Shown in pieces: positions 2,310-19,141 of a stretch of DNA of 24,647 bases. The position numbers and the translations under genes are program-made. A model generated the notes under the pieces. That model saw nothing but the letters and a program-made list of their open reading frames with translations, did no database searches and was not told the DNA's origin. Origin of the DNA: a virus; the IMG/VR virus record IMGVR_UViG_3300009285_004882, positions 1 through 24,647 of that record; one strand, 5' to 3'. Every line of letters starts with the position of its first letter. The first letter of the stretch is position 1.

Positions 2310-2648
2310 TCACCTGCTTTCCGCCGCTGATATGGCGGCTTGTAATGGTTGTTGTAAATCTTGGCAAGCCATAATTGCTTGATTCAACGATCCATTGACT
2401 ACACATCCTTGTTTCGTAAGTTCGGAAAGTGCCCAAACCACGGTATCAAGCGATTTCTTGCACGCTTCGAGTAGTTCCGGGGCCGCGGCGATAAGACGGG
2501 CATTAGCTAATAATTCATCATGTTCTTGCTTAGTCCATACGCCTGTTTCAGCGATAAAAGCGTTTGTTTTTTCTTCTCGGATAACATAAGATTCACTGTT
2601 TCCGTGGTTTACATGTGCGCAAGTCCATTTTCCCTTAGTGTAACTCAT
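2310..2648 (-). CDS. Phage protein with NARLIAAAPELLEA motif
   Basis: A 112-aa protein. The opening MSYTKGKWTC, a short beta-rich section (SYVIREEKTNAFIAETG) and then NARLIAAAPELLEACKKSL at residues ~48-66 are the hallmark of a very common small phage/prophage protein family found in early or accessory regions. The C-terminal half is helical. The family's molecular role is unknown to me. It overlaps the upstream lysozyme-like gene by ATGA and has the same AAAGCAGGTGAA ribosome-binding segment as the next gene downstream. Confidence 0.75.
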   Translation of the reverse strand: MSYTKGKWTCAHVNHGNSESYVIREEKTNAFIAETGVWTKQEHDELLANARLIAAAPELLEACKKSLDTVVWALSELTKQGCVVNGSLNQAIMACQDLQQPLQAAISAAESR

Positions 2649-3016
2649 TTTTCACCTGCTTTCTTAATTTTATTGATATATGCTTTAACTTTTGGTTCAT
2701 TCATTTGTTTCCATCCGTCCGGGCCTGCACAATGGATAGATGCGAGTATTTCCATTGTGGCCTTTTTGCCGGTCGTTTTCTGATAATGATTCCCGTACCG
2801 TGTCAAGTATGCCTTGACTACCTTTTCGGCCTTCTGCGGGTCTTGTGCTTCGCTATACGGCCAATTAACGCCGAGATAATCAGTTCCATCTTTCCAATAT
2901 AATTCCCATATTTGAAATTTCCCTATGGCACGTCCAGAATCTCCGACGGCTTGATTATTGCCGGCGGATTCGACTTGGGCAATTAAGGGCAAAAGGGCAA
3001 AAATGATCTTATCCAT
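2645..3016 (-). CDS. Lysozyme/transglycosylase-like enzyme (candidate endolysin)
   Basis: A 123-aa protein from ATG 3016. This start is chosen because AAGGGGGGG lies just upstream and the ATG overlaps the previous gene's stop by 8 nt (ATGGATAA); an in-frame start at 3097 would bury most of that gene. IAQVESAGNNQAVGDSGRAIGKFQI resembles the active-site segment of lysozyme-fold transglycosylases, with Glu16 as likely catalytic acid and GKFQI as the substrate-cleft loop. Conserved-looking IHCAGPDG follows at ~98. It would cleave peptidoglycan glycan strands at lysis or during entry. There is no signal peptide, so a phage endolysin would need a holin, and none is evident in the leftward operon. 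Confidence 0.7.
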   Translation of the reverse strand: MDKIIFALLPLIAQVESAGNNQAVGDSGRAIGKFQIWELYWKDGTDYLGVNWPYSEAQDPQKAEKVVKAYLTRYGNHYQKTTGKKATMEILASIHCAGPDGWKQMNEPKVKAYINKIKKAGEK

Positions 3017-3212
3017 TTTGCCCCCCCTTGATGATCGAAAGCTTGATTCTGTGTAGTTTTTCATGGTATTGTCCAGAAATTCTTTGAAACGCATCATTCA
3101 GCAGATCGCCCTTGAAGTTGGTTAACGCCCGGAATTCTGTTTCAGTCCTCCAGACTTCGAGGTTTACAAATTTCCGATTGACTTCATTATTTACTTTTGA
3201 TAGATTTTCCAT
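3009..3212 (-). CDS. Small hypothetical protein upstream of the lysozyme-like gene
   Basis: A 67-aa soluble, mostly helical protein (MENLSKVNNEVNRKF...). AAGGAGT lies 8 nt before the ATG, a strong ribosome binding site. Its stop overlaps the start of the lysozyme-like gene by 8 nt, so translation of the two is probably coupled. It has no membrane segment and so is not a holin. It could be a lysis regulator or unrelated; I do not recognise the family. Confidence 0.6.
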   Translation of the reverse strand: MENLSKVNNEVNRKFVNLEVWRTETEFRALTNFKGDLLNDAFQRISGQYHEKLHRIKLSIIKGGQNG

Positions 3213-6167: not shown

Positions 6168-6244
6168 TACTACTATATATGGTGTGCTTGTATGGATTTT
6201 ATAGCAATAAATCAAAAGCTTTGTTTTAAGCTTAAAAATGCAGG

Positions 6245-6272
6245 TTGAATGCAACATTATACCCATTATAGG
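6245..6272 (+). promoter_or_regulatory. Possible promoter before the zinc-finger gene
   Basis: TTGAAT (6245-6250), a 16-nt spacer and TATAGG (6267-6272) each match 4 of 6 consensus bases. It lies 24 nt before ATG 6297. Only weak support. Confidence 0.25.
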
Positions 6273-6296
6273 ACGTTGATAGAGAAAAGGTGAAAT

Positions 6297-6662
6297 ATGA
6301 GTGAATGCAGGATATGTGGTAAGGATTGCAATGGACAGACCTGCTCTGGTGCTTGCAGGGCTAAGTTATCACGTGCGCACGCGCACGGTCAAGGCGCACG
6401 CGCACAGGCGCACGCAGAAGGCGCACGCCCTGAATTTAGCGTAACAGAGGGCAAACCCGCTCTCCACGATTGCGCAGGTGATGCGATCTCGGTCCCGACC
6501 ATACCACAGTCCCCCCTTGATAATGGCTATGACGTGGTACTAAGCGACGGCCAGATACTACATCGCACACCTACGGCAATCACAGACCCATTGCTAAGGC
6601 AACTATCAAAGCAATATGACATTATTAATAACAGGCAAACATCAGGTATAAATCTATGTTAA
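6297..6662 (+). CDS. Zinc-finger protein with His/Ala/Gly repeat tract
   Basis: A 121-aa protein. The N-terminus CRICGKDCNGQTCSGACRAKLSR has Cys at 4, 7, 11, 16 and 20, a compact zinc-binding module of a type seen in small phage proteins (CxxC...CSxxCRxxxxR). A low-complexity tract follows, RAHAHGQGARAQAHAEGARP, encoded by four GCGCACGC repeats. The C-terminal 50 residues (YDVVLSDGQILHRTPTAITDPLLRQL) look folded. AAAAGGTGA precedes the ATG. Position between terS and terL suggests a role near packaging, or merely a host for a DNA site. The function of the protein is unknown. Confidence 0.7.
   Translation: MSECRICGKDCNGQTCSGACRAKLSRAHAHGQGARAQAHAEGARPEFSVTEGKPALHDCAGDAISVPTIPQSPLDNGYDVVLSDGQILHRTPTAITDPLLRQLSKQYDIINNRQTSGINLC
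6375..6428 (+). repeat. Four GCGCACGC iterons inside the zinc-finger gene
   Basis: Exact GCGCACGC copies start at 6375, 6394, 6408 and 6421, with spacings of 19, 14 and 13 nt. The tract is strikingly GC-rich within an AT-rich neighbourhood and lies about 200 nt downstream of terS. Iterated sites beside a small terminase gene are candidates for a packaging (pac) site or a replication or protein-binding site; that role is inferred. Confidence 0.55.
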
Positions 6663-6816
6663 AGACGAGCAAAACCCAGAACACAGCCGGATCACGGCAG
6701 GGATTGACTTCCCCGCCTGTGCAAAAAAAATATAACTACCCTGATGTTCTAAAAAATACACCCCCCATTTCAATTCCGATATTTTTTGTCTTTAATATAT
6801 AAAAGGTAAAGTTTAC

Positions 6817-6828
6817 GAGATTGATAAT
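6817..6828 (+). repeat. 12-mer shared by two divergent leaders, copy 2
   Basis: GAGATTGATAAT, identical to the minus-strand 12-mer at 5465-5476. It ends 3 nt before the AGGAG ribosome binding site of the gene at 6843. The remaining intergenic 6663-6816 holds a weak GGCAGGG/CCCCGCC hairpin near 6698-6717 and AT-rich sequence, with no clear promoter. Confidence 0.55.
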
Positions 6829-6842
6829 TTAGGAGTACAAAC

Positions 6843-7343
6843 ATGAAACAATACGGAAAAATAGCTTTATTCAGCATTTTGACATTGGTAGTTGTTTTTG
6901 GGATTATTGCTTACAAGTCGATCCCTTTAAGTGCGGCGAATTGGCCGGCAACAAATACGATTTCGATTCATAAAGCGATGGGGAACGGATTTTCGACGGT
7001 AGGCAATGCGTATGCGATTATCTCGCCGGTAGCTAACTGTGATATGTACAATTCATCCGGTGCTGTAGAGACTACATACGCTTCTGCGGCGATAACATTT
7101 ACCGCAGATGGTCAATATACGGATGAAGCATTGGCTACAATTCCGGCTTTGCCTCAAACAATTACTGATTGGGAGATAACATTTTACGAAAATGCTACTC
7201 CGACCGCCGGAGATGCGGCCGTTATTGGGCCTTGCAGACTTGATCCGCATACAGGTCAGACGTTTACTGATACGAATCCTATCAAGTATAACCGTGTCCG
7301 GATAACCAATCAGCAGACCGACGCAAAGGATCGACGAGATTAA
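6843..7343 (+). CDS. Signal-anchored or secreted protein upstream of terL
   Basis: A 166-aa protein. Residues 7-23 (IALFSILTLVVVFGIIA) form a membrane segment after a short basic N-terminus (MKQYGK). SIPLSAANW gives a possible signal-peptidase site around Ala32. The remaining ~130 residues are rich in Thr, Ala and Ser, with alternating strands (AITFTADGQYTDEALATIPAL, WEITFYENATPT), suggesting a small beta domain exposed outside the inner membrane. TTAGGAG lies before the ATG. Its stop overlaps the terL start (TAATG), so the two are tightly coupled. I do not recognise a family. Possible roles are a membrane-associated virion component or a superinfection-type surface protein. Confidence 0.6.
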   Translation: MKQYGKIALFSILTLVVVFGIIAYKSIPLSAANWPATNTISIHKAMGNGFSTVGNAYAIISPVANCDMYNSSGAVETTYASAAITFTADGQYTDEALATIPALPQTITDWEITFYENATPTAGDAAVIGPCRLDPHTGQTFTDTNPIKYNRVRITNQQTDAKDRRD

Positions 7344-8689
7344 TGGCTGTAACCGTTAAAACAATACAGGCAGAACCTTTTCAATACTCTTTCTTTACGA
7401 GTATTGCCCGGTATCCGGGTATGGTCAGTAGTTGGGGCACCGGAAAGACTATGTGGGCATTGATGAAGGGGATATTGTTAAGCCGGTTTTATGAAGAAAA
7501 TCTTGGATTGGTTGTAAGAAGTAAGTTTACGGATTTACGTGATAGTACAATGAAGGATTTTGAGCGATATACGGGACTTACAATCCCGCAGGGGACGAAA
7601 GAAATCGATATTGGAAGCTCAAAAGTCATGTTCCGTCATGCAAAAGAGCTAAGCGGTTTACAAAACGTAAACCTTGGCTGGTTTTTGATTGAGCAGGCGG
7701 AAGAGTTTCCGACGGAGGCTCAGTTTGACTTGTTAAGAGGGCGGCTTCGGCGTGAACTGAAAAGAGACTCGGATTATCATATTGACAAAAAAAGCCCGAT
7801 GTATCAGACATTAGTTAATATGGAAAAGAATCCGCTTCGGCAGGGGATTATTATCGCTAATGCCAAAGGTCATAATTGGGTATGGAAACGGTGGGTTAAG
7901 AGTATTCCCGATGGATATGCCGGTTTTCAGGCGACGACATTTGACAACGAGGGGAATTTGCCGAAGGACTTTATTGAAGACTTAAAACGGATGGCGATTG
8001 ACAGTCCGGTGAAATACGCTCAGTTTGTCCTGAACGACCACAGCGAGGTTGATATTACCGCGTCTTATTATGCGTCGTATATTTCCCAACTAAGAAAGAA
8101 CGGACATATTACGAAGATTTCGTATGATCATAATACGCCGGTATATACCGCTTGGGATTTAGGATTTGACTGTACTTCAATCTGGTTTTTTCAGATTGTC
8201 GGTAACGAAATTCATATTATTGATTATTACGAGAACACCGGAAAACCTATTGACCATTATGTTGATATTATCGTGTCCCGAAAACAGTCCGATAAATATA
8301 TATACGGAACATTTTATATGCCGCATGACTCAAACAAAAGAGAGATGCAGTCTGGGATTTCTTTATCCAGTGCAATCAGGAATATGGGATATACGGTTGT
8401 TGCGCTGGAACGGGAAAAGAATATTGATTTTGGGATTAACCGGGTCATGCAGACGTTGCCCCGATGCTGGTTTGATGAAAAGCGGTGTGAAAACGGATTG
8501 GAAGGACTTGAACATTATCGAAGAGAATATGATGAGGACAGGAAAATCTATCTGGAATCGCCACTCCATGATTGGTCAAGTCATCCGGCGGATTGCTTTA
8601 GATACCTTACTAAGTCATTGGAAAAAGCTAAGGCTTCAGTTAATTTAACATTGGATGCTTACCGTGAAATGAAGAGGAAATATGCCTAA
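7343..8689 (+). CDS. terL: Terminase large subunit (packaging ATPase and nuclease)
   Basis: A 448-aa protein that pumps DNA into proheads through the portal and cuts it. ATPase: SSWGTGKT (29-36) is the Walker A loop, with Ser in place of the usual first Gly. NLGWFLIEQAEEF (110-122) is the Walker B region, with Glu117-Gln118 where Asp-Glu is commonest. RNase H-like nuclease: YTAWDLGFDCTSIWFFQ (268-284) carries Asp272 and Asp276, and HDWSSHPADCFRYL ends with the metal-binding Asp417. Domain order and length are typical of P22-like and related terminases. The start codon overlaps the previous stop (TAATG), and the end overlaps the portal start by 8 nt. Confidence 0.92.
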   Translation: MAVTVKTIQAEPFQYSFFTSIARYPGMVSSWGTGKTMWALMKGILLSRFYEENLGLVVRSKFTDLRDSTMKDFERYTGLTIPQGTKEIDIGSSKVMFRHAKELSGLQNVNLGWFLIEQAEEFPTEAQFDLLRGRLRRELKRDSDYHIDKKSPMYQTLVNMEKNPLRQGIIIANAKGHNWVWKRWVKSIPDGYAGFQATTFDNEGNLPKDFIEDLKRMAIDSPVKYAQFVLNDHSEVDITASYYASYISQLRKNGHITKISYDHNTPVYTAWDLGFDCTSIWFFQIVGNEIHIIDYYENTGKPIDHYVDIIVSRKQSDKYIYGTFYMPHDSNKREMQSGISLSSAIRNMGYTVVALEREKNIDFGINRVMQTLPRCWFDEKRCENGLEGLEHYRREYDEDRKIYLESPLHDWSSHPADCFRYLTKSLEKAKASVNLTLDAYREMKRKYA

Positions 8690-13796: not shown

Positions 13797-14375
13797 ATGG
13801 AAACAGTAGCTAATACTCTGTCAGACCAATTGGAGTCAATGGACAAAGAGGCGTTAATTACGCTGGCAAAAGAGACATACAACCTTGATATTGATCGTCG
13901 GCTTTCGGAAATGTCAATCCGGAAAGAACTGCTGCATCAGGACACGGAAATCAAACGGCAGGCGCGGGCAATGACGGAACAATCCGCCAATTCCGTTGCT
14001 ACGGATTCCGATCCGCTGGTAACAATCGTGTTTATGCCGCTGGATTTTCCGAACGCACCGCTTGATTTCAGTTATGACAGTGGACGCGGAGTTGTCGGAG
14101 CCTCGGCGACTCCTAATGAACGGGAAAAGGCGATTAAACGAGGCGCACTTCCGACTCTGCCGAGATACCAGTTATTTCCCGGCCAGACCTATGAGCTTCC
14201 GATGAGTGTCGTAAAACACCTGAAATCAAAAACGTTCAGGGATTCGCAACCCATCATAGATACTCAGACGGGGATGATTGCGGGAAATAAGCCGATTATC
14301 AAGCCGAGATTTTCCGCTGACATCCAATTGACTGACGACCAGTATCGTAAAGTTGGAAAACCAAACACCTTATAG
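13797..14375 (+). CDS. Hypothetical virion-region protein
   Basis: A 192-aa protein. The N-terminal ~60 residues are helical and charged (LSDQLESMDKEALITLAKETYNLDIDRRLSEMSIRKELL), resembling a small SAP/Rho-N-like or dimerisation helix pair. The rest is a beta-containing domain with LVTIVFMPLDFPNAPLDFSYD and LPRYQLFPGQTYELPMSVVKHLKSKTF. The latter half recurs in phage structural cassettes beside capsid genes, and here it lies between capsid and fibre genes. AGGAGA precedes the ATG. A head-completion role is possible but not shown. Confidence 0.6.
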   Translation: METVANTLSDQLESMDKEALITLAKETYNLDIDRRLSEMSIRKELLHQDTEIKRQARAMTEQSANSVATDSDPLVTIVFMPLDFPNAPLDFSYDSGRGVVGASATPNEREKAIKRGALPTLPRYQLFPGQTYELPMSVVKHLKSKTFRDSQPIIDTQTGMIAGNKPIIKPRFSADIQLTDDQYRKVGKPNTL

Positions 14376-14384
14376 GAGTAACCT

Positions 14385-17099
14385 ATGAAAACTGTATCGT
14401 TTAATGAATGCGATTCACCGGATGAAGTCTGTAAATTGTTCAATCGTGTATTTGCAGACCTCGAACTTTTGAATGTAAAACTTATTCAAGTGGAGAAAAA
14501 AATGGACGCTAAACCGGAAAAAAAAGTGAAATCAAAAAAATCCGGATTTGCACGTCTTGGCGTATTGCTGGCCGTTGTTATGGTTTTTTCAATCGGTGCG
14601 TGTGCTGAATTATGGCCGATTACGTATGATAACTGTTCGAACCCTGAAAGTCTGACCGTTCTTCTGCAAAACCGGCTTGGGATTACCGGAAGTACCTATA
14701 CCTTCGGTAACGGACTGACGATTGACAACGCAACGAACAATGTCTTTGAATGGAACGAGAACTCTGAAGACCTGTTATGGACGTTTGGAACGAACCTTCT
14801 TTCGTTGACCAGTACGACTGGAGTTGTAAAAGTCAATTTTGGTGCGGTTGTTCCGGCAGGAAACCAGTTTCTTATGAATCCCGTAGCGGACAAAGTCGGG
14901 TCTGTCGAAGGAACCCTTTATTATGACAGCGATGACGATAATTTGTACCTGACTACCACGGCGGGTCAGGTTGATTTGACCGCCGCCGCAGGCTCGATTA
15001 CGGATTTCGACACGGCTTATAACGGCGGAAGTACGGTCGATGTGGATACTGATGCGATAACCTTAACTGTCAGCGATACGGATAATAATCTGGCCTTGAT
15101 TATGGCACAGAACGACACCACGAATAATCCGAATGTAGTCCAGATTACTAATGCCGGAACGGGGATTGGTCTGGATATTGACGGTCAGGCGGCAGGCAGG
15201 GACATCGAAGGAACCGGGGCAACATGGTATGTAACGGGCGCAGGCGAGGGTACTTTTTCAAGCGTGTCGTCTGTATTTACATCGACCGGAAATTTCACTC
15301 TTGAATCCGCCGAAACTATTGGAAACGCAACAAATAGTGAAATTGCATTCACTGAAAATTCCGGTGAAGATTTTATTTTCGATATGGATGCAGGAACGAA
15401 CGCCATCGGACTCAAAAGTTCAACAGGCGTTGATGAGTTAGCAATGGGTGCAGTTGATGATTTGACCGGAGTCGGGACAATTGTTTTTGATGCGGCAGCC
15501 TCAACAATTACATTGGCGTCTGATGGTGTAGCTCAAGACCTTACGTTATCCGTAACCGGAGCTCAGAATTCAAGTCTGGTTTTGGTCTCTTCTGGAACCG
15601 GTGCCGATGCACTGACAGTTTCAACGTCGGCTGGCGGTATGGATGTTACCGTTGCAGGGGCCGCAGCAGGTGAAGATTTGGATTTACTGTCGAATACGTC
15701 TATTAATCTGACAGCTAACGAAGCCGCTATGGACGATGCGATTGTAATTGCAACCGGTGGTGCCGGAAGTGGCATGCAGATTACCTCTCTGGCAGATATT
15801 GACATTACGACTACAGGTGCAGCCGGTGAAGATATTTCTTTGACGAACACCGGTGGGTCTATCAATTTAACGGCAACCGAAAGTGCGGTGGATTCAATCG
15901 TGATTTCATCGTCTGTCGGCGGTATTGATATTACCGCTGCGGGCGGTGCCGCGACTGAGGATATTGATATTCTGGCAACGTCCAGTTCAATCAATATCGA
16001 TGCTGGCGAAAACGCGGCCAGTGCGATTACCCTAACAACCGGAGCAGGCGCAACAGGCGGAACATCTGAAACCATCGTGATTACCAACACGGATGGTACA
16101 AGTGCAAATGCCATCACTGTTAATGCCGCAGCAGGCGGTATCAATGTTGATGCACTGGATGATATTGACTTGACTGTAACAGCAGGCGGGGCAGGCGAAG
16201 ATTTGCTTTTGACTGCAACTGGCGCTCAGGATACGGCGATTACTCTTACCTCGTCCGGTACAGGCGATGATGCGATTGGTTTGGTTACGACCGCAGGCGG
16301 TATCAATATCAATATGTCCGGCGGTGCAGCGGGTGAGGATTTTGAAATCACTACCGCTACGTCGATTGATTTTTCATCCAGTGAGGCGGCAGCCGATCAG
16401 TTCAAGATGGATGCGACTGGAACTGTTGCCGGGAATGCGATTAACCTCGAAACAACGGATGGCGGTATTGTGTTTACCGCAGATGGCGCAGCTAACGGCG
16501 ATATTACCATTGATGCCGAAGATGTTATCAGTCTTACATCCGCGAACGCAGCAGGTATTCTTGCTTCAACAAACGCCAAGACACTTCGATATGAAACCTT
16601 CGGAATCAGTCAGGGTGTAACTGCGGCAAGTGAAGTGATTGTCGGAAACGGCGGTCAGGGTTTGATTTGTACTTCATTGGATGCCGGTGTAAACGAAGCA
16701 GGCGCAACAACGGGATATGCAACTGTCGGCGATGATGAAGATATTTTGATTTTCTGGGTTCCGCTTCCTGATACATGGGTTGATACAGGTACTCAGACTG
16801 ATCTGGTACTTCAATTCTATATCTCCGAACAGGCGGCTGAAGAGTGCAATATGGATGTCAGGATTTTCGAGTTCAATAACACCACGCCGATTCTTTCCGA
16901 TACACTGTTGGTTGCGAACGGGGCGGGCGCAGGATGGGTTAATCTTGTAACGAACGCCACGGGTATCGGGAACGATGCAGATGTTGATGCAGACGACAAC
17001 GGGTATATTGTTGAAGTTACGGCTACCGCAGATACGGATGATTTTCGTATTTACGGCGCACGATGGAAATACCGCGTTGGATTGCAGGCAACTCAATAA
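14385..17099 (+). CDS. Large beta-repeat surface/fibre protein with internal signal sequence
   Basis: A 904-aa protein. Residues 1-39 are a soluble helical extension. Met40 opens a textbook signal sequence: a lysine-rich stretch (KPEKKVKSKKS), hydrophobic residues 58-71 and ACA|EL at 72-76. Both starts have ribosome sites: TAGGAG before 14385, and GGAG at 14492-14495, 6 nt before ATG 14502. Residues ~390-725 contain about five imperfect 42-50-aa repeats of the form GGIDITxAGGAAxEDIDIxxxxxSINIxAxE, suggesting a stacked beta-strand shaft. The last ~180 residues (TLRYETFGISQG..., DTWVDTGTQTDLVLQFYISEQ) look like a beta-sandwich head. It may be a head or tail fibre, or a phage-encoded surface adhesin. 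Confidence 0.65.
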   Translation: MKTVSFNECDSPDEVCKLFNRVFADLELLNVKLIQVEKKMDAKPEKKVKSKKSGFARLGVLLAVVMVFSIGACAELWPITYDNCSNPESLTVLLQNRLGITGSTYTFGNGLTIDNATNNVFEWNENSEDLLWTFGTNLLSLTSTTGVVKVNFGAVVPAGNQFLMNPVADKVGSVEGTLYYDSDDDNLYLTTTAGQVDLTAAAGSITDFDTAYNGGSTVDVDTDAITLTVSDTDNNLALIMAQNDTTNNPNVVQITNAGTGIGLDIDGQAAGRDIEGTGATWYVTGAGEGTFSSVSSVFTSTGNFTLESAETIGNATNSEIAFTENSGEDFIFDMDAGTNAIGLKSSTGVDELAMGAVDDLTGVGTIVFDAAASTITLASDGVAQDLTLSVTGAQNSSLVLVSSGTGADALTVSTSAGGMDVTVAGAAAGEDLDLLSNTSINLTANEAAMDDAIVIATGGAGSGMQITSLADIDITTTGAAGEDISLTNTGGSINLTATESAVDSIVISSSVGGIDITAAGGAATEDIDILATSSSINIDAGENAASAITLTTGAGATGGTSETIVITNTDGTSANAITVNAAAGGINVDALDDIDLTVTAGGAGEDLLLTATGAQDTAITLTSSGTGDDAIGLVTTAGGININMSGGAAGEDFEITTATSIDFSSSEAAADQFKMDATGTVAGNAINLETTDGGIVFTADGAANGDITIDAEDVISLTSANAAGILASTNAKTLRYETFGISQGVTAASEVIVGNGGQGLICTSLDAGVNEAGATTGYATVGDDEDILIFWVPLPDTWVDTGTQTDLVLQFYISEQAAEECNMDVRIFEFNNTTPILSDTLLVANGAGAGWVNLVTNATGIGNDADVDADDNGYIVEVTATADTDDFRIYGARWKYRVGLQATQ

Positions 17100-17151: not shown

Positions 17152-18195
17152 ATGAGCTTAACATGGACACGTTCTGAAATACGGTCGAAATTCAGGGAAT
17201 TGACCAAAAATCCCGATACCAGCCAGATTTCAGATTCAGATATTAACGATAAGATTAACGACTTTTACCGGAATAAGTTTCCTTTTGATATTAAGTCAAT
17301 CCTTCTGAAAGGAACATATCCCGTCTCGTTATCTCCGACGGATTCAGGAAGGTATTCAGTCGATGCGTCGATCCTTAAAATCCAGCCGACAGAGAACGAC
17401 CCGTTAAAACTGAACGGACAGGATGTTGAGTTTACGCAGGACAGGCAGAAATTCTTTGACGCTTACCCGAAAGATACCGGTTCAGCATTTGTTATCAGCG
17501 ATTCCGGTGTGGTTTTAGCGATTGGTTCAGATACGACCAAAGTCGCTAATTCCGCTTTCTATTACGAGATTGGCGGTTATTCCTATTATAAGGCTGCAAC
17601 CGAAACATCGTTGTCTGGAAGTACGATTCCGCAAAGTAAGTACGGGGCATGGCGACTTGAAATAAATGCGGATGGAACAATCTCGATTGAGGCGGCCTCG
17701 GCGAATTCGACAGGATATACCACTCCGGCTAAAGCCATTGAAGGGATTGCCGATGAAAGTTCAACAAAAGCGGCGATGGGATATGTTACCGTGATTAATA
17801 CATCCGGTACATTTATCCCCGGCACAACCGGACTGGATGCCGTAGGCGTTACCGATACCTATACTGATGGATGGAATAGTACCCGAAACCGGCCTGAAAT
17901 GATTTTGTTGTATGATAATTATTTATACGCAGGCCCAAAACCGGATGACTGGTATGAATTGGTTATTCCATATTTGAAACGACCGGACGAATTATCTTCG
18001 GACAGTTCTGTTCCGTTGGATGTTCAATGGGGAATGGCGATTGCTTATGGTACATCGATTGAACATTATGTTCAGGAAAGCGATGATGAAAAAATATCAT
18101 TATTAGCTCCCGTCTATTCACTGCTTATCAGTGATATTAACAAGAAATACAGTTCACAGCAAGGCATAACCCGCCGGGTAAAGGCGTCTTTTTAA
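17152..18195 (+). CDS. Head-to-tail adaptor (neck) protein with inserted domain
   Basis: A 347-aa protein. The N-terminus SEIRSKFRELTKNPDTSQISDSDINDKINDFYRNKFPFDI matches the helical start of gp4/adaptor-like proteins that sit under the portal. The ending (PEMILLYDNYLYAGPKPDDWYELVIPYLKRPDELSSDSSVPLDVQWGMAIAYGTSIEHYVQES...) is the matching C-terminal helical part. Residues ~117-235 are an inserted module (YYEIGGYSYYKAATETSLSGSTIPQSKYGAWRLEINADGTISI...), found in many unrelated phage head proteins. It would lock DNA in and connect the tail. AAAGGT precedes the ATG. Confidence 0.75.
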   Translation: MSLTWTRSEIRSKFRELTKNPDTSQISDSDINDKINDFYRNKFPFDIKSILLKGTYPVSLSPTDSGRYSVDASILKIQPTENDPLKLNGQDVEFTQDRQKFFDAYPKDTGSAFVISDSGVVLAIGSDTTKVANSAFYYEIGGYSYYKAATETSLSGSTIPQSKYGAWRLEINADGTISIEAASANSTGYTTPAKAIEGIADESSTKAAMGYVTVINTSGTFIPGTTGLDAVGVTDTYTDGWNSTRNRPEMILLYDNYLYAGPKPDDWYELVIPYLKRPDELSSDSSVPLDVQWGMAIAYGTSIEHYVQESDDEKISLLAPVYSLLISDINKKYSSQQGITRRVKASF

Positions 18196-18205
18196 GGGGT
18201 ATAAC

Positions 18206-19141
18206 ATGGCCGGAGACGGAAATTGGAATAAACTGTTACCCGTGGCGGGTGAAAAGGCAAGACTCGTCAGTGGAATTATGCGGGACAATAATAGCGGCAT
18301 CGAAACCGCGATGAACGCTGAGCATATCTTTAACGGGACAACTGCCGCTACGCAAACAGGGGCGCACCGACAGGGTTCGGCAAGGGCGTTTTTTCAAGAC
18401 TCCGCCCCGGCGACTGCGGTTGACGGCTCTGCGTTTGCCTCAACGGATTTAGGGTCTTTGTGGTTTGATACCAATAGTTCACCGGACAATATTTTGTATG
18501 TCTTGACTGCCACGACTCCAACGTGGACTCCGGTCTCAACAGAGATCATTGCAACGTTACTTGCCTCAGCAAGAGTGTTTGGAAGCACGTTAGGCGTTGC
18601 CAGCGATTTTGCCGTTAATACAGATAAACTTACCGTCGATGCCGCTACCGGAAATACTCTTATCGCCGGAACATTAGACGTTACCGGAAACTTAGACCCG
18701 ACTTCATTTGAAGCAACGAATGGCGGATTTATCGACGAAGATTCAATGGCGACTGACAGTGCAACCAAAGTCCCGTCTCAGCAAAGCGTTAAGGCGTATG
18801 TGGACAACCAGATTGACGCTACTGTCGGATCAGGAACTACAAGTCCGTTGGCTATGACAGGGTCGAATGATTCTATTGGAGAGATTACACTTCCTAATGG
18901 TTTCATTATGAAATGGGGCAAAAAAACAATTACAGGAACCGATGGCACAATAACATTTACAACGGAAGGGTTGTCGGCATTTCCCAATGCTTGTTTTCAG
19001 GTTATTGTTTGTGGCGGAAATTCATCGAGCGGAACAACACAGACGATTCAGTCACACACTCCAACGGCTACGAGCTTTAAATGGCATACTGGAAACGGGG
19101 CGGATTTAACTCCGGCAAGATGGTTTGCGATAGGATACTAA
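18206..19141 (+). CDS. Tail fibre protein
   Basis: A 311-aa protein. The N-terminal ~70 residues (MAGDGNWNKLLPVAGEKARLVSGIMRDNNSGIETAMNAEH) would attach to the tail. A short repetitive shaft contains GNTLIAGTLDVTGNLDPTSF and FIDEDSMATDSATKVPSQQSVKAYVDNQI, the latter a very common fibre signature. The C-terminal ~85 residues (LPNGFIMKWGKKTITGTDGTITF ... FPNACFQVIVCGG ... FKWHTGNGADLTPARWFAIGY) match the knob at the end of gp53-like fibres, which contacts the receptor. Its stop is directly adjacent to the next start (TAAATG). Confidence 0.8.
   Translation: MAGDGNWNKLLPVAGEKARLVSGIMRDNNSGIETAMNAEHIFNGTTAATQTGAHRQGSARAFFQDSAPATAVDGSAFASTDLGSLWFDTNSSPDNILYVLTATTPTWTPVSTEIIATLLASARVFGSTLGVASDFAVNTDKLTVDAATGNTLIAGTLDVTGNLDPTSFEATNGGFIDEDSMATDSATKVPSQQSVKAYVDNQIDATVGSGTTSPLAMTGSNDSIGEITLPNGFIMKWGKKTITGTDGTITFTTEGLSAFPNACFQVIVCGGNSSSGTTQTIQSHTPTATSFKWHTGNGADLTPARWFAIGY

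Follow-up and report, generated by a model that had tools for sequence, protein, structure and literature searches.

A fibre-like phage gene with two start-like ATGs as the probable fused form of a two-part unit bearing a signal peptide

The 904-aa fibre-like gene in the window, by which we mean the whole stretch of 24,647 nt that was analysed, represents, by homology, a conserved two-part unit whose components are here fused in frame: a small helical 'ECDS/EVDS' protein and a signal-bearing, fibre-like beta-repeat protein. The start next to the signal lies inside a longer gene in some phages and opens a separate, overlapping gene in others, which suggests a real inner start and a protein that leaves the cytoplasm. 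The best explanation, towards which we lean with some reserve, is that the unit joins a small helical protein that would stay in the cytoplasm to a fibre-like protein that would be exported by Sec under its own signal peptide. The features of the gene are collected in Table 1, in which SD denotes a Shine-Dalgarno sequence.

Table 1. Features of the fibre-like gene and its downstream neighbour in the window
Feature	Position	Strand	Basis or remark
904-aa fibre-like ORF	14385-17099	+	in 24.6-kb viral record (24,647-nt window)
SD TAGGAG of the long start	14373..14378	+	sequence; anti-SD energy -6.8 kcal/mol; overlaps the stop of the upstream gene
N-terminal 'ECDS' domain (N-domain), residues 1-39	14385..14501	+	HMM homology to separate small genes; predicted helical
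Internal SD GGAG	14492..14495	+	sequence; SD energy -6.4 kcal/mol
Second in-frame ATG (codon 40), where a signal-first form would start	14502..14504	+	sequence, SD, relatives
Lys-rich linker ending at invariant Gly54	14505..14546	+	alignment of fused relatives
Signal-peptide-like segment, residues 55-74	14547..14606	+	pattern; homology with N-terminal signal peptides of L044 and L026
Mature fibre-like beta-repeat protein, conserved 'SNPxxL...' start	14607..17096	+	
347-aa structural-block gene	17152..18195	+	anchor for collecting relatives

Both in-frame starts described in the sequence-only reading are found, ATG 14385 with its TAGGAG and ATG 14502 with GGAG at 6-nt spacing, and the 39 residues that precede the second ATG are soluble, as that reading held. 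The SD energies of the two sites fall inside the range of the window's other gene starts, and the RNA around ATG 14502 is nearly unstructured (-2.1 kcal/mol, matched by 0.5% of sampled in-gene positions), an openness that is start-like too. Both ATGs look like genuine start sites. Only 2% of the internal ATGs in 20 fused genes have an SD as strong as that of ATG 14502, and 8% of synonymous recodings of the same protein reach its strength (p = 0.08), so that this SD is notable and not extreme. When SD strength is taken over the whole linker and the start codon is ignored, the excess in the family is weak (p = 0.018) and the window is unremarkable. These figures bear on a reading in which only ATG 14385 is used and ATG 14502 has arisen by chance in the A-rich linker, with a single exported product whose leader would have a long Lys-rich n-region and would include the N-domain. 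We regard this as possible but doubtful: an SD in the top 2% and comparable to those of real starts argues against it, whereas the synonymous resampling favours it, as does the fact that lysine codons alone make the linker A-rich and open, whatever the linker's function.

Relatives were collected via the capsid, the 347-aa neighbour and the start of the fibre, which gave about 45 uncultivated phage contigs. In 22 of them, the window included, the N-domain, the Lys-rich linker, the signal and the fibre lie in one frame (the fused layout). Sixteen relatives have instead a separate small ORF, mostly of 45-100 aa, directly upstream of a signal-first fibre gene; two further contigs, L026 and L045, are less certain members of this class, their small ORF being a plausible Lys-rich match that the HMM missed. 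A third layout (L004, L100, L102, L104 and L106) has a signal-first fibre with no N-domain found adjoining it. L032 and L051 were left unclassified, and L108, with a 30-residue match only, was left out as another kind of gene. An HMM built from 13 fused N-domains detects 14 of the separate small ORFs among 6385 ORFs (E 5e-16 to 3e-4), and these ORFs are therefore homologous to the fused N-domains; the small ORF of L046 scores more weakly (E 0.011) and L099 stood outside this test. When 13 fused members were first aligned, the Lys-Gly motif supplied the sole invariant residue, its Gly. Two irregular loci were also seen. The fibre ORF of L003 is seemingly broken by a frame change at 6240-6290 and resumes at 6288-7622, which could be a sequencing error or a real split. 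In L103 (4398-7190) a different gene lies upstream and runs in frame, with no stop on the way, into the signal-first fibre, which starts alone in the near-identical L104 (4749-7190).

The separate members provide further insight into how the two parts meet. In them the signal opens the fibre gene, whose SD energies run from -4.7 to -10.9, and in most pairs this gene overlaps the small one by 1, 4, 8 or 11 nt, although others have no overlap. K-G-x-K or a similar sequence often closes the small protein because its last codons contain the SD of the fibre gene, and it is to this end that the window's linker corresponds. Judged by overlap geometry only, most split relatives resemble coupled pairs, the downstream start lying a few nucleotides from the upstream stop. 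Stop-start overlapping gene pairs with termination-reinitiation (PMC6728339), and conserved transitions of frame (PMC3711429), have been described, and the split relatives share with stop-start pairs the short overlaps and a downstream SD inside the upstream gene; the window differs in being fused in frame with no stop between the parts. Programmed ribosomal frameshifting, which is known for some overlapping ORF pairs (PMC3711429), might alternatively join the two parts in the split relatives, so that the fusion would be functional throughout. The overlaps are A-rich, as this would favour, but the two ORFs do not keep one relative frame (an overlap of 1 or 4 nt places them in one, an overlap of 8 or 11 nt in the other, and some pairs have none), and we consider frameshifting very improbable.

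Whether homologues keep both starts, a matter that the sequence-only reading left to alignment, receives a divided answer. A signal-like hydrophobic segment is present in every readable related fibre gene of the same type, and a start codon occupies a conserved site before the h-region in 12 of the 20 fused genes (ATG in nine, GTG in three more); seven of the 20, the window among them, have there no start of three codon kinds with a fair SD. An ATG 3-9 codons before the h-region is found in 9/20 fused genes against 2.1 expected by chance, and the SDs of these ATGs are stronger than those at other internal ATGs (p = 1.4e-4). Resampled codons give nearly equal strength, so that selection on the SD at synonymous positions is not detected at the family sites (p = 0.10), and the protein motif, once present, is enough to account for the SD. 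In the window the ancestral start position reads KKSGFAR, its start codon having been lost; ATG 14502 is found about 14 codons before the conserved site, and the ATG of L003 in a place like that of ATG 14502 has a weak SD (-2.7). In the product from ATG 14502 the n-region of the signal peptide would span about 20 residues. The claim that the second start yields an exported form thus finds support in homology, through the signal-first relatives, and is weakened by the position of the window's own ATG. Absence of the ancestral start codon from the window and several other fused genes is in keeping with use of ATG 14385 only, whereas the retention of ATG or GTG beside the signal in the 12 genes counts against it, and we think the inner start is likely to be real in the family.

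The distribution of the two states on trees shows repeated switching. Changes between the fused and separate labels number at least five on the tree of the 347-aa protein and at least two on the capsid tree. The window is nested among separate members in the former and is basal to a mixed group in the latter, and the trees give different directions for the switch in its clade; recombination between genes could explain the disagreement. Switching of this kind would be easiest if the second start were already in use. Switching between fused and split states around one start codon also offers comparative evidence on the use of internal starts, usually an experimental question. A known case of an embedded start is lysA of mycobacteriophage Ms6, in which lysA(241) lies in frame within lysA and both forms are endolysins (PMC3111421). 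Like the window gene, it is one phage gene with two in-frame starts, the inner of which has a ribosome-binding site, giving a long and a short protein, the short one being putative in the window. The window differs in that its inner start would place a signal peptide near the N-terminus and in that its relatives encode the parts separately.

The n-region, hydrophobic core and ACA site of the sequence-only reading are present at residues 54-74, with A-C-A before E75, and the hydrophobic segment is conserved; homologues without the N-domain begin there. Judged by hydropathy and pattern only, residues 45-74 have the charged n-region, the hydrophobic core and the small residues at -3 and -1 expected of a Sec signal cut by signal peptidase I, with a possible site at A72-C73-A74 | E75, and the relatives share this layout. 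Two separate-type homologues align to the window from residue 55 (L044, at its residue 2) and residue 60 (L026, at its residue 5), so that the window contains a complete signal-first protein within a longer one. The split and N-domain-less relatives show a textbook N-terminal signal, in which -1 is mostly A or G, ahead of a conserved mature start. Conservation of the hydrophobic segment as a signal peptide is supported by the alignments of L044 and L026 and by the start codon that most fused relatives retain close to it. It might instead be a membrane anchor or an assembly element that is not cleaved, as hydrophobic segments occur in anchors too; the N-terminal signals of these relatives and the same kind of signal in neighbouring genes make this unlikely. 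The window protein also has an alternative lipobox pattern, IGA-C73, whose match ends at C73. A cysteine at this position is missing in most relatives; the mature protein of the window may be a lipoprotein.

Taking the preferred two-part reading, ribosomes starting at 14385 would make a precursor of N-domain plus fibre, and those starting at 14502 a signal-first precursor. Both would enter the host Sec pathway, signal peptidase would cut near A74 and release the fibre outward, and the N-domain would remain inside, as it would where it is separately encoded. The two starts would then set the amount of N-domain more than the destination of the fibre. The sequence-only reading had proposed another division, in which the long form is cytoplasmic and enters virions and the short form is exported. 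Two credible in-frame starts are indeed present, and an N-domain that carries charge might in principle slow targeting. However, the signal is intact in the long form, which may be exported too, and the N-domain would have to block export, which nothing here suggests; moreover, no signal-less fibre form is seen in the split relatives, where an N-domain encoded on its own has no means of blocking export in cis. We therefore regard a cytoplasmic or virion long form as quite improbable.

The 904-aa protein has no sequence match in Pfam, PHROG, NCBIfam or PDB, and its full-length model is poor (pLDDT 47; a helix at residues 12-41 belongs to this low-confidence model). A 190-residue model of residues 76-265 is better (pLDDT 77.5) and gives no match at E < 0.001 in fold searches; a likeness to collagen trimerisation domains over 25 residues lacks significance (E 1.7). 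No convincing family match was found for the small N-domain, and a scan with the 684-aa downstream protein gave no relatives. The fibre, the 347-aa neighbour and a signal-bearing tail fibre have no relative in 50,697 phage records. N4-gp56-type podophages such as Pseudoalteromonas phage vB_Pun_Y3 (OR779980) have a distantly related major capsid protein (about 29% identity) and a partly similar gene order, but vB_Pun_Y3 has no match to the window fibre or the 347-aa gene, and 1/44 of its genes is signal-like. The sole bacterial-genome match to the capsid, at 32% identity, is in Fulvimarina endophytica and is possibly a prophage (L091 8001-8831).

In the tailed phages that have been well studied, folding and assembly of the tail proteins are understood to take place in the cytoplasm. 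With a simple filter plus an SD requirement, 69/329 genes are signal-like in 25 family loci against 3/134 in three control phages, a ratio that is only indicative: the filter is a crude one, which overlooks several fused genes and lets through some false hits (an internal start in the small gene of L007 is an example), and the family loci consist mainly of structural regions. The signal-bearing genes include a protein with a Gp53-like tail-fibre C-terminal domain (L005) and a tail collar domain protein (L003; PHROG tail collar fibre, E 2.9e-40). With about a fifth of the sampled genes of the structural-block region signal-bearing, tail fibres among them, one may ask how such fibres reach the virion, or whether they act on the host surface instead. 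We found no paper in the open-access literature on signal peptides on tail fibres of this kind, the nearest being a study of Porphyromonas gingivalis phages, tailed phages with genes for predicted Sec signal peptides (PMC10367356). In both groups, genes of tailed phages are predicted to rely on the general secretion system of the host; in the P. gingivalis phages (PMC10367356) the signals are carried by capsid proteins, spanins and genes of unknown function, and in the window family by fibre-like and tail-fibre-domain genes in the structural block. In the window itself, a Gp53-like_C tail-fibre protein without a signal peptide is encoded at 18206-19141, and the equivalent place in several relatives is held by signal-bearing fibre genes (with Gp53-like_C in L005).

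In four relatives the fibre gene and the 347-aa gene are separated by a gene for an O-antigen-ligase-like (Wzy_C) membrane protein that has TPR repeats (L025 4378-5874; L039 4422-5993; L046 4505-5986; L057 4507-5985). O-antigen ligases act outside the inner membrane, and speculatively this location would fit fibre export. A tentative and rather unlikely proposal is that a tailed-phage clade sends its fibres across the inner membrane via Sec in place of cytoplasmic assembly, so that they would mature in the periplasm or at the cell surface, in some phages maybe with glycosylation by the phage-encoded ligase-like enzyme, the two-start gene being one control on this route.

Three other window genes have, or could have, a hydrophobic N-terminus. 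A 561-aa protein (277-1962) has a canonical N-terminal signal peptide and a beta-helix-like start, 'YYVNG...', and a 166-aa protein encoded directly before the terminase gene (6843-7343) has an N-terminal hydrophobic segment; neither has a family match. On the minus strand, at 2645-3097, a 150-aa lysozyme/transglycosylase-like protein has a possible internal start (MDKIIFALLPLIAQVESAG) that would give it a hydrophobic N-terminus.
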